Source: Desulfurellales bacterium
Lineage (GTDB): Bacteria > Campylobacterota_A > Desulfurellia > Desulfurellales > Hippeaceae
Assembly (NCBI GenBank): GCA_027014115.1
Contig: JALWEJ010000031.1
Span: 1 to 48,391, forward strand
Direction of reading: 5' to 3'
Length of the DNA stretch: 48,391 nucleotides
The notes under the pieces were generated by a model, which saw only the letters and a program-made list of their open reading frames with translations, ran no database searches and was not told where the DNA came from. Positions within the stretch are counted from its first letter, which is position 1, and every line of letters starts with the position of its first letter. Positions 41,186-48,363 of the stretch are shown piece by piece. The translations under genes and the position numbers were made by a program.

Positions 41186-41349
41186 TTCCTAATACAAGGT
41201 TCGTTGTGGTTTAATTTTATATTCCCCGCCTCTGTCATCCTTTAGCGCTTGAATTTTCAATACAAGGCTTGTGTCGGTTCAATCAGATGGCACAATTGGA
41301 GCGCAGCAGGTTGTGGAGGATTTCAATACAAGGCTTGTGTCGGTTCAAT
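41186..41349 (-). CRISPR. Short, decaying CRISPR array (three repeats, two spacers)
   Basis: The 30-nt repeat, read on the minus strand, begins ATTGAACCGACACAAG and ends with the type I-B-like handle ATTGAAAT. The intact copy is 41320-41349, a copy with one mismatch is 41254-41283, and a copy with 20/30 identity is 41186-41215. Spacers are 41284-41319 (36 nt) and 41216-41253 (38 nt). The cas2-proximal repeat is intact and identity drops away from it, so the leader is on the cas2 side. The first spacer resembles part of a tRNA-His gene. Confidence 0.85.
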
Positions 41350-41376
41350 AGGGCCAAAACAGCATTTTCAAAAGTC

Positions 41377-41405
41377 ATTTTATATGAAAATGTCTATCTT
41401 GACAA
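41377..41405 (-). promoter_or_regulatory. CRISPR leader promoter
   Basis: On the minus strand: TTGTCA, 17-nt spacer, TAAAAT, placing initiation about 20 nt before the first repeat. It lies in the 62-nt AT-rich gap between the cas2 stop codon and the array, the expected place for a leader. Confidence 0.55.
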
Positions 41406-41411
41406 GATTCT

Positions 41412-41750
41412 TTATATATTTTTTCCAACCGATTCGCTATCATATTGCTTTTTAAAAGAACACTGCAAAAATGCGCAATAAATCAATACTATCTCAAAAA
41501 CGGCTTTGCTTTGCATTTTTATAATTGAAACATAATCTATTTCTTTATCAATAACCTTTTCTATTTCATTCTTGAATTTTATCAATTTTGACGGTGTTAT
41601 GTTGCCTCTAAAAACCGATTTTTGGTGGTGTTTAAAGTATTTCTTGCATATTTTAAACACCTTTGCCACTCGATATTTGCCAATTTCGCTTTCTTCGTCT
41701 GCTATGTCGTAAAAAACAAAGGCATAATTGTAGTTATATTGTTTGCTCAT
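41412..41750 (-). CDS. cas2: CRISPR-associated protein Cas2
   Basis: 112 residues with the ferredoxin-like fold of Cas2: the first strand is [11 protein letters not shown] with the conserved Asp15, then [25 protein letters not shown]. It joins Cas1 to form the spacer integration complex. It is a little longer than the usual 85-100 residues; the last 20 or so residues (around [14 protein letters not shown]) extend past the family core. It overlaps cas1 by 4 nt and is followed by the leader and array. Confidence 0.9.
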
Positions 41751-45576: not shown

Positions 45577-45582
45577 AATACT

Positions 45583-46545
45583 TTAAAAAATTCTTTCAAG
45601 ATTTTGAAATTCAACATTTAATTTTATAATTCTATATAAGCCATAAATTTTTTTAATAATTGTTAACTGCTTAAAATATCTTATTTTTTCATAAATTCTA
45701 TCTCTTAATGGCAATGTTGAAAAACCTTTTCGCATTAAAGCATCACTTGCTTGAAAATAAAATCTTCTATTTTGAGTATCATCTTGTAATAAAATATAAA
45801 ATACTCTATTATTATTTTCATCTTGATTTTCATCGCTTTCTAAAAAATAAATTCCACAGCTTCTTTCATCAGTATTTTCGAACAATTCGTCAGGATAATT
45901 ATCATTTGATATTAAATTTAATAATAAACCTTTTTCTGTTGTGGCAAATAAAAATGTTTGTAAATCAGGAATTTCGAATTGATTTGAAAACATTTCTTTT
46001 GCATGATTTGCATCAGCATTAACAATATAGTTTCTACTTCGGCAGATATTATTAACAAAATTATCTAATCTTTCTAAAAAATCTTTTAAAATTGGAATAT
46101 TATGATAAGAAACTGTGCTTATTCCATGTGCCCATGCTAAATTTATTGCTTCTTCATGAAAAAAGGTTGCAGAGAATACTATAGGGATATTTAAAAATCT
46201 AATTCTTTCTTCTCTTTGGTTGTAAAAATAATTTTCATCAATATCTTTTGTAACTCCAATAAATTCTCTTATTACATTTTTATAAATCCCATTTTTATAA
46301 TATTTACATTCAACCAATATCCTTAATGGATAAATAAAGGGTATATTTCTTTCATAAATTCCAATAAAATCTATTTGATGTTTTGTACCTCTACCTTGCA
46401 ATTCACCATCTTGAGAAATCAATTCACAAGGTTGTTGGTTAATTTGAGTTCCATTACTAAATTCACATTTTATAAATCCATTTTTTTCAAGCATTATAGA
46501 TACAAATATTTCAAATAAATAACCTCTTAACTGTGCGCAAGTCAT
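45583..46545 (-). CDS. PD-(D/E)xK restriction-endonuclease-like protein
   Basis: 320 residues. The N-terminal domain (about 1-150) looks like an Mrr-type nuclease: a helix with Glu12 (RGYLFEIFVSIML), then GRGTKHQIDFIG with Asp59, then ILVECKYY with Glu79 and Lys81, the usual catalytic set. The C-terminal half (about 150-320) is not recognised. Base composition is very AT-rich. The start lies 3 nt after the OLD-type gene and the stop 6 nt before cas3. It is probably a nuclease working with the AAA/TOPRIM protein in defence (inference). No methyltransferase gene accompanies it. Confidence 0.75.
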   Translation of the reverse strand: MTCAQLRGYLFEIFVSIMLEKNGFIKCEFSNGTQINQQPCELISQDGELQGRGTKHQIDFIGIYERNIPFIYPLRILVECKYYKNGIYKNVIREFIGVTKDIDENYFYNQREERIRFLNIPIVFSATFFHEEAINLAWAHGISTVSYHNIPILKDFLERLDNFVNNICRSRNYIVNADANHAKEMFSNQFEIPDLQTFLFATTEKGLLLNLISNDNYPDELFENTDERSCGIYFLESDENQDENNNRVFYILLQDDTQNRRFYFQASDALMRKGFSTLPLRDRIYEKIRYFKQLTIIKKIYGLYRIIKLNVEFQNLERIF

Positions 46546-46548
46546 ACA

Positions 46549-48363
46549 CTATTCCAATAATTCTTTAATTTTTTCAAACCAATTTTTTATTTCATCAAAT
46601 GCATTTAATTCTATAAATAATTCTTTTGTCATTTTTTTAGAAAGTTTTCCATTTAAAATACCTTTTATTGCATCTTCATTTTTGCCAGTTTTCGATATTA
46701 AAAATTTTGGTATATCTGCTTCATCCCATCTATCTGATATATCATTACATGAAATATTAAATTCTTCTTCAATAAGTTTTGGATGAATATAATTTTCCAT
46801 TTCTCGTTTTTTTGTTAAAAAACAACAAGACTCATCATCTCTTTCATTTACTTTTTGACAACTTTCTTTATATTGATTTGTAGATTTACCAGAGTTTAAA
46901 TCACTATCATATATATGAACTTCAATTATATTTGAATCTTTTAAATAATTTTTTTGAACCCAGTTTTTTAAATTACCTCCATTCATTGGAATAATATCTA
47001 CACATTCTAAATTTAATATTGTAAATAAATCAGTTATTTTGTTAATATTCCTTAAAAAATTTTCATCATGTCTACCTTCAACACATACAACTACCTTATT
47101 TTTATAATAAGGATGTATACCCAAAGCATTAGCAATTTTTTCTAATTTTTCATCTTCTTCTATTTCAATATTAGGCTGTTTTTCTCCTTTTTCAATAAAA
47201 ATCAATTGTTGTTTATCAACCATTTTTGCAATCTCAGGTGTATGAGTAGTAAGTAATATTTGGTAATTGTCTTGTTTAGATAATTTAATTAAAGCATCAA
47301 TTAAAAGTTTTTGATGATTTGGATGTTGAGAAGTCTCAGGCTCTTCTAGTGCGTATATAATATTTTTATTATTTTTTTCATTTGCCTTTCTTTCAGCTTC
47401 TGCTCTAAAATAATTTAATAAAACCATTCTTCTAAATCCACTACCTCTCTTATTTAAAGGAATACCATCATCACTTTCTAATGTAAAACTAAATAGACTA
47501 TCCCAATTTTTATTTTTTACAACAGGTTTTAAATTATCGGCTATTGGCAAACCCATATCTTGCATTTTTTCAATAGTCTTCCTACCAATTTCTTCTAATT
47601 TTGTTTCTATTTCTTTTTTTATATCTTCAAATTGTTCTTCTACTTGCATAACAATTTGTTTTGTAGCACTTTTTAATGGATTTTGTATATCTCCATCGCT
47701 ATCTTTATTTTCTCTATCACTCTGAAACAAAAAATATAACGGTAATTCTTTTTGTAAAGCACTCCAAATATTTTTGCCTTCATCTTTTTGTAAATCAATT
47801 TCAATAATACTAAATTCCGTAGAGCTATTAATATCATGGTTATATATTGCCTTTCTTATATCAGCACTTTTTGTTTTATCAATATCATCATAATTATCTA
47901 TGTTATCTTTTATAGATTCCAATTTTGATTTTAAATTGTTAATTTTCAAATTTATTATTGGTACTTCATAACAATTTGGATATTTAGCTCTTATAAAAAC
48001 TTTTTCTTTTGATAATTTATTATTTGATATATTATATATTTTAATAACTTCCAATAATCCTTTTTCGTTTAATAAGTATTCATCAACTAATTTTGTTTTA
48101 TTTGTAGTATCAATAATTATTTCAAAATCATCCTTAACTTCAAATTCTACTCCTATTTTAATAAAACTATCCTTAGAATTAATATTAAAATCATTTATAT
48201 CTATTTTAACAACTTCTTGTCCAAAGAATATATCTAATGCTTCTAAAATTGTTGATTTTCCTATATCATTTTGTCCTATAATTACATTCAAATCATTATC
48301 AAAAATAATTTTTACATCTTGATATACTCTAAAATTCTTTAAATACAAGCTTTTAAGTTTCAT
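46549..48363 (-). CDS. OLD-family AAA ATPase with TOPRIM nuclease domain
   Basis: 604 residues. An SMC/ABC-type ATPase: Walker A GQNDIGKS (30-37), a coiled region (about 140-290), the signature-like RGSGFRRM (306-313), Walker B IIYALEEPETSQHP (335-348) and H-loop LLTTHTPE. A C-terminal TOPRIM domain follows: VEGRHD with Glu429, MNGGNLKNW, IYDSD with Asp486 and Asp488, and KREMENYIHP (518-527). It is related to OLD and GajA nucleases; the REMENY motif also recalls the DUF4435-type TOPRIM of PARIS, so a fused PARIS-like protein is an alternative. The region is visibly more AT-rich than the chromosome to the left. The start at 48363 has AAAGG upstream, 28 nt from the window edge. Confidence 0.88.
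   Translation of the reverse strand: MKLKSLYLKNFRVYQDVKIIFDNDLNVIIGQNDIGKSTILEALDIFFGQEVVKIDINDFNINSKDSFIKIGVEFEVKDDFEIIIDTTNKTKLVDEYLLNEKGLLEVIKIYNISNNKLSKEKVFIRAKYPNCYEVPIINLKINNLKSKLESIKDNIDNYDDIDKTKSADIRKAIYNHDINSSTEFSIIEIDLQKDEGKNIWSALQKELPLYFLFQSDRENKDSDGDIQNPLKSATKQIVMQVEEQFEDIKKEIETKLEEIGRKTIEKMQDMGLPIADNLKPVVKNKNWDSLFSFTLESDDGIPLNKRGSGFRRMVLLNYFRAEAERKANEKNNKNIIYALEEPETSQHPNHQKLLIDALIKLSKQDNYQILLTTHTPEIAKMVDKQQLIFIEKGEKQPNIEIEEDEKLEKIANALGIHPYYKNKVVVCVEGRHDENFLRNINKITDLFTILNLECVDIIPMNGGNLKNWVQKNYLKDSNIIEVHIYDSDLNSGKSTNQYKESCQKVNERDDESCCFLTKKREMENYIHPKLIEEEFNISCNDISDRWDEADIPKFLISKTGKNEDAIKGILNGKLSKKMTKELFIELNAFDEIKNWFEKIKELLE

Follow-up and report, generated by a model that had tools for sequence, protein, structure and literature searches.

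The window, that is, the whole stretch of DNA analysed here, corresponds to the complete contig C31 (48,391 nt) of a genome that is 99.1% complete and distributed over 103 contigs. Near one of its ends lie six minus-strand genes, encoding an OLD-family protein (OLD), a nuclease-like protein (REase), Cas3, Cas4, Cas1 and Cas2, followed by a very short CRISPR array (Table 1), and the last base of the contig is located 28 nt upstream of the OLD ATG. When re-read from the sequence, all six open reading frames (ORFs) were present at the coordinates given by the first-pass annotation, whose spacings of 3 nt (OLD/REase), 6 nt (REase/cas3) and 15 nt (cas4/cas1), together with the 4-nt overlaps of cas3/cas4 and cas1/cas2, were likewise exact. 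Family searches placed the four cas genes of the window in the I-B clade; the window Cas3 lacks an N-terminal leader which, in relatives, overlaps cas5.

Table 1. Features of the minus-strand operon and its CRISPR array, in window coordinates.
Feature	Position	Strand	Basis or remark
cas5b, C-terminal codons and stop ((S)INFI-stop)	48375..48391	-	remaining cas5b at the edge of C81, same genome
OLD-family ABC ATPase + TOPRIM nuclease, 604 aa	46549..48363	-	AAA_15 3e-77; TsOLD 6p74 and GajA relatives
Mrr-like PD-(D/E)xK nuclease (REase), 320 aa	45583..46545	-	HQID(59)...ECK(79-81); Mrr_cat weak, 0.001, below cut-off
cas3, HD nuclease + helicase, subtype I-B	43252..45576	-	family search Cas3b 3e-227
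cas4	42767..43255	-	family search Cas4b 1e-56
cas1 (I-B)	41747..42751	-	family search Cas1b 5e-134
cas2	41412..41750	-	family search Cas2b 1e-25
CRISPR repeat 1, ATTGAACCGACACAAGCCTTGTATTGAAA on transcribed strand	41321..41349	-	strand by analogy with known I-B repeats
Spacer 1, 37 nt	41284..41320	-	array reading
CRISPR repeat 2	41255..41283	-	identical to repeat 1
Spacer 2, 39 nt	41216..41254	-	array reading
Degenerate terminal repeat, 69%	41187..41215	-	array reading

The short array reported at the operon end was confirmed, consisting of two identical 29-nt repeats and a degenerate terminal one, with an outlying repeat-like copy (79%) at 40946-40974. No copy of the intact repeat was found across the genome outside the array, and neither the 22-nt core of spacer 1 nor the 23-nt core of spacer 2 had an exact match in IMG/VR. 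Spacer 1 looks tRNA-like, with a putative D-loop and an anticodon-stem-like sequence. Between the degenerate repeat and the outlying copy, a GC-rich stretch with no Rfam match (41018-41145) stands amid an AT-rich region, and a 225-aa minus-strand ORF with no Pfam or NCBIfam match lies downstream of the array (39986-40663).

The first-pass annotation described this locus as devoid of Cascade, an absence that turned out to be a contig-edge artefact. The cas5, cas6, cas7 and cas8 genes were all found elsewhere in this genome, on contig C81, whose minus strand carries, toward the contig edge, cas6, a HEPN-like gene (called by reading, motif RNELEH), an MNT nucleotidyltransferase gene, cas8b, cas7, a YhcG/DUF1016 nuclease gene, and cas5 running off the contig. 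The type I-B signature gene cas8b (C81 2664-4286) matched the PADLOC Cas8b model at 2e-113, with further PADLOC matches to Cas5b (2e-46), Cas7b (6e-38) and Cas6b (1e-43), and the YhcG protein corresponds to PDC-S02 (2e-154, PADLOC). An early search for Cas5 with PF09704 gave no match because this model is too narrow; the C81 protein matches the PADLOC Cas5b model and no Pfam model. Thus, of the two options offered by the annotation, a Cascade lying beyond the window was the one strongly supported.

The cas5 gene itself is divided between the ends of both contigs. C81 ends with the residues FEYKGK, the window minus strand starts with GT ATA AAT TTT ATT TAA, and joining the contigs with a 1-nt overlap yields FEYKGKSINFI and a stop, the missing Cas5 C-terminus (KGKSINFI-stop) being completed by the first 17 nt of the window minus strand, with the same length and pattern as in relatives; the Cas5 proteins of 27 related loci terminate in motifs like GKNYAFI-stop. 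In the joined reading, the cas5 stop (48375-48377) lies 11 nt before the OLD ATG. This adjacency derives from reading frame and gene order, with no spanning read or contig, and its exactness is inferred, not proven, since the frame is equally preserved if 2 or 5 nt separate the contigs. Searches of the genome gave a single match each for cas1 and cas7, and a search for cas3 in the host phylum's 24 other genomes gave none. On C81 (locus L008, 5107-5820, minus strand), the cas6 sequence, intact in relatives, falls into two reading frames, owing either to a genuine frameshift or to an error of the assembly. Given this split and the about two spacers in the array, CRISPR may be in decay in this host, with interference weak or lost.

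Very likely, then, the window is the downstream half of a single type I-B operon split by the assembly at cas5/OLD, in which OLD and REase constitute embedded defence cargo; they are read as cargo and not as a substitute effector since the Cascade genes lie on C81, with cas5 ending where the window begins. The operon would be arranged as cas6-[HEPN-MNT]-cas8b-cas7-[YhcG nuclease]-cas5-[OLD-REase]-cas3-cas4-cas1-cas2-array. The same order cas6-cas8-cas7-cas5-cas3-cas4-cas1-cas2 occurs in the Campylobacterota type I-B operon of Sulfurospirillum sp. 'SP' plasmid pSulSP (L009), whose Cas1 and Cas3 are 72% and 48% identical to those of the window (Arcobacter Cas1, 71%); however, pSulSP has no inserts, whereas the window operon would hold three cargo modules at three junctions. 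In plain operons such as pSulSP, cas5 overlaps cas3.

Regarding the first gene of the pair, its earlier reading as an AAA/TOPRIM protein holds. The AAA_15 match identifies an ABC ATPase with Walker A (GQNDIGKST at residue 30) and D/E motifs, as in the OLD family, and VEGRHD at 428 and DSD at 486 provide the TOPRIM acidic residues E429, D486 and D488, which are invariant in an alignment with 6 relatives. No separate TOPRIM match was returned by Pfam; searched as a profile against solved structures, the protein matched TsOLD (6p74, 1e-17) and GajA (4e-17). The nearest relatives are L083 (62% identical), which stands alone, and L060 (56%), beside a fused C5-methyltransferase/HpaII nuclease, both without REase, while others adjoin type II restriction-modification genes on plasmids or lie within hsd operons. 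OLD family nucleases are distributed in classes 1-3, among which no Mrr-like partner is included (PMC10568477). The classes, including Gabija GajA, share with the window OLD the N-terminal ABC ATPase and the C-terminal TOPRIM domain, but the window OLD has no UvrD-like helicase (class 2), has no reverse transcriptase (class 3) and is not a lone gene (class 1). Unlike in Gabija, where GajB is a UvrD-like helicase, the neighbours at the window locus are cas5 and REase. The AriB partner of PARIS and the HNH partner of Septu (PtuB) are likewise absent, the REase having a PD-(D/E)xK motif and no match to PtuB or to any other PADLOC model.

The second gene had been annotated as a PD-(D/E)xK nuclease, which stands at the motif level, with D59 and E79-x-K81 invariant in five relatives; at the family level, only a sub-threshold match to Mrr_cat was obtained (19.6 bits against a cut-off of 21), and four of the five relatives also match weakly. 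Full-length relatives, 45-54% identical, occur in four Campylobacterota genomes, and three of them (L061-L063) are solitary, among non-defence-looking genes. Beyond this Pfam match, the REase matched no PHROGs or NCBIfam model, and it was not found in the other 18 genomes of the host order. A single-protein search of genome contigs and searches of phages and of viral contigs gave no match, and a search of plasmids gave one weak N-terminal match only (Priestia). A REase profile retrieved nothing meaningful from the PDB, and single-sequence structure prediction gave no usable model (mean pLDDT 33).

To judge from its domain content and context, the pair would most likely represent a self-contained second DNA-cleaving defence layer that needs no crRNA. 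Both genes would have arrived jointly, as one cassette inserted between cas5 and cas3, and would be expressed with the cas genes from the same transcript. As has been proposed for OLD and GajA, the OLD ATPase would sense infection, from DNA ends that are aberrant or from changes in nucleotides; DNA would be nicked by the TOPRIM domain of OLD, and the Mrr-like nuclease would complete the destruction of the invader DNA. No evidence found requires a coupling of the pair to Cas3.

For comparison, 32 related I-B loci were recovered by Cas3 (30 genome contigs and two plasmids), and an insert was defined as an ORF of at least 90 aa, as predicted by a simple gene caller. Homologous loci without the pair, which the first-pass annotation proposed as the mark of a simple insertion, were indeed found, as none of the 27 comparable cas5-cas3 junctions has an inserted ORF (one of them shows an unexplained 477-nt gap with no ORF of 90 aa); the absence of recurrence, which would have weakened a functional link, did not hold entirely, given locus L019. 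In this locus, 26 C-terminal REase residues, 77% identical to those of the window, overlap cas3 by 4 nt at the contig edge, and Cas3 is 76% identical to the window Cas3 and lacks the same N-terminal leader. Searches of the L019 and L020 genomes (contigs of at least 3 kb) did not recover the remainder of OLD and REase. The simplest reading is one insertion predating the split of the window and L019 lineages.

The pair is also distinct in composition: GC content at third codon positions (GC3) is 0.102 in OLD and 0.106 in REase, against 0.31 in the pooled cas genes of the window (p 6e-26 and 1e-15), and is at least 0.214 in 33 other window ORFs. The L019 REase tail is similarly AT-rich (GC3 0.037, 27 codons only), and such composition may explain the assembly breaks near the pair. 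Outside CRISPR, at L064, an OLD-like ATPase-TOPRIM gene is followed after 9 nt by a REase gene, downstream of SbcD/SbcC-like genes (assigned by reading), its OLD-like product being 24% identical to the window OLD. It is rather unlikely that OLD and REase were inserted separately, as unrelated single genes that are adjacent by chance: the solitary REase genes of L061-L063 and the OLD genes without REase in L083 and L060 agree with such an origin, but the 3-nt gap, the same extreme GC3 in both genes and the independent pair at L064 argue against it. The OLD-REase pair is plausibly a facultative two-gene module, and not an obligate one, because REase is solitary in three of its four full-length relatives and the closest OLD proteins occur without REase.

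Other cargo is frequent in these operons, with inserts at varying junctions in 17 of the 32 I-B loci and in 8 of the 14 complete operons. PADLOC identified Septu PtuA/PtuB at cas8-cas7 (L010), with relatives by similarity in L027, L032, L039 and L046, as well as Fic (PDC-S04) at cas7-cas5, BroN (PDC-S13) at cas3-cas4 and RhuM-Fic (PDC-S23) at cas4-cas1. Furthermore, a relative (68%) of the YhcG protein of the window operon lies at cas6-cas8 in L026, and relatives (61 and 60%) of its HEPN-MNT proteins at cas8-cas7 in L030; the occurrence of one family at more than one junction speaks for capture on repeated, independent occasions. In a bolder picture, which we consider unlikely, the I-B operons of the clade would serve as general platforms for loading defence: cassettes could be swapped at nearly any junction, would be carried on the cas transcript and would respond jointly with CRISPR, and OLD-REase would be a new system of two nucleases, its activity linked to Cas3 or to a failing Cascade.

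A further possibility, which we regard as distinctly unlikely, is that OLD and REase are true accessory Cas proteins that act on the products of Cas3 or supply Cas4-Cas1-Cas2 with DNA fragments. The tight 3-nt and 6-nt spacing would suit such a role, as would the retention of REase beside cas3 in L019 with its 4-nt overlap and the similar divergence of the L019 REase tail and Cas3; nevertheless, the pair is absent from all the other cas5-cas3 junctions compared, relatives of both proteins are found away from CRISPR, and other kinds of cargo occupy other junctions with no consistent partner. Finally, the use of OLD-REase by Cas3 and the adaptation genes as a non-Cascade effector, suggested by the window contig in isolation only, is extremely improbable with cas6, cas8b, cas7 and cas5 present in the same genome, in the expected order and ending at the window start, and with single cas1 and cas7 matches in that genome. 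A Cascade-free architecture was rejected on account of the cas6, cas8b, cas7 and cas5 genes of C81.

Embedded cargo, the preferred reading, has precedents. Under the term 'guilt-by-embedding', defence genes lying within other defence systems have already been described, with the PADLOC PDC families (Payne et al., 2024, doi 10.1101/2024.01.29.577857, as cited in PMC12629846 and PMC12988326), and the window pair is also placed between genes of a multi-gene defence system, on the same strand and with tight spacing. An older example of embedding is that of rloA and rloB inside Campylobacter hsd loci (PMC2928727); likewise, AAA_15-type relatives of the window OLD lie between hsdM/hsdS-like and hsdR-like genes (L087, L088, L091 and L092; hsd assigned by reading), although at ~510 aa these proteins match the window OLD chiefly in its ATPase half, and their host operon is restriction-modification and not CRISPR. 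OLD-REase at cas5-cas3 is well supported as a cargo variant, probably new, of a known phenomenon.

These results remove a false claim of Cascade-free CRISPR produced by a contig edge, and show that, in this clade, many junctions of the cas operons accommodate defence cargo that is interchangeable; some cargo families, here the AAA_15 ATPases, are also present in hsd operons. The nesting of defence genes in defence operons thereby becomes testable as shared regulation, as back-up when CRISPR is blocked, or as hitch-hiking, and OLD-REase constitutes a concrete candidate two-gene system with an uncharacterised nuclease family. Among the related operons, ~227-aa proteins at cas6-cas8 (L035, 2924-3610; L040, 5895-6575) match part of the PD-T4-5 model (3e-16 and 4e-14, respectively), and in L041 (8571-14796) a second set composed of cas6, genes for proteins of 559 and 305 aa, a cas5-like and a cas3-like gene lies between cas3 and cas4, possibly representing two operons with one shared adaptation module.
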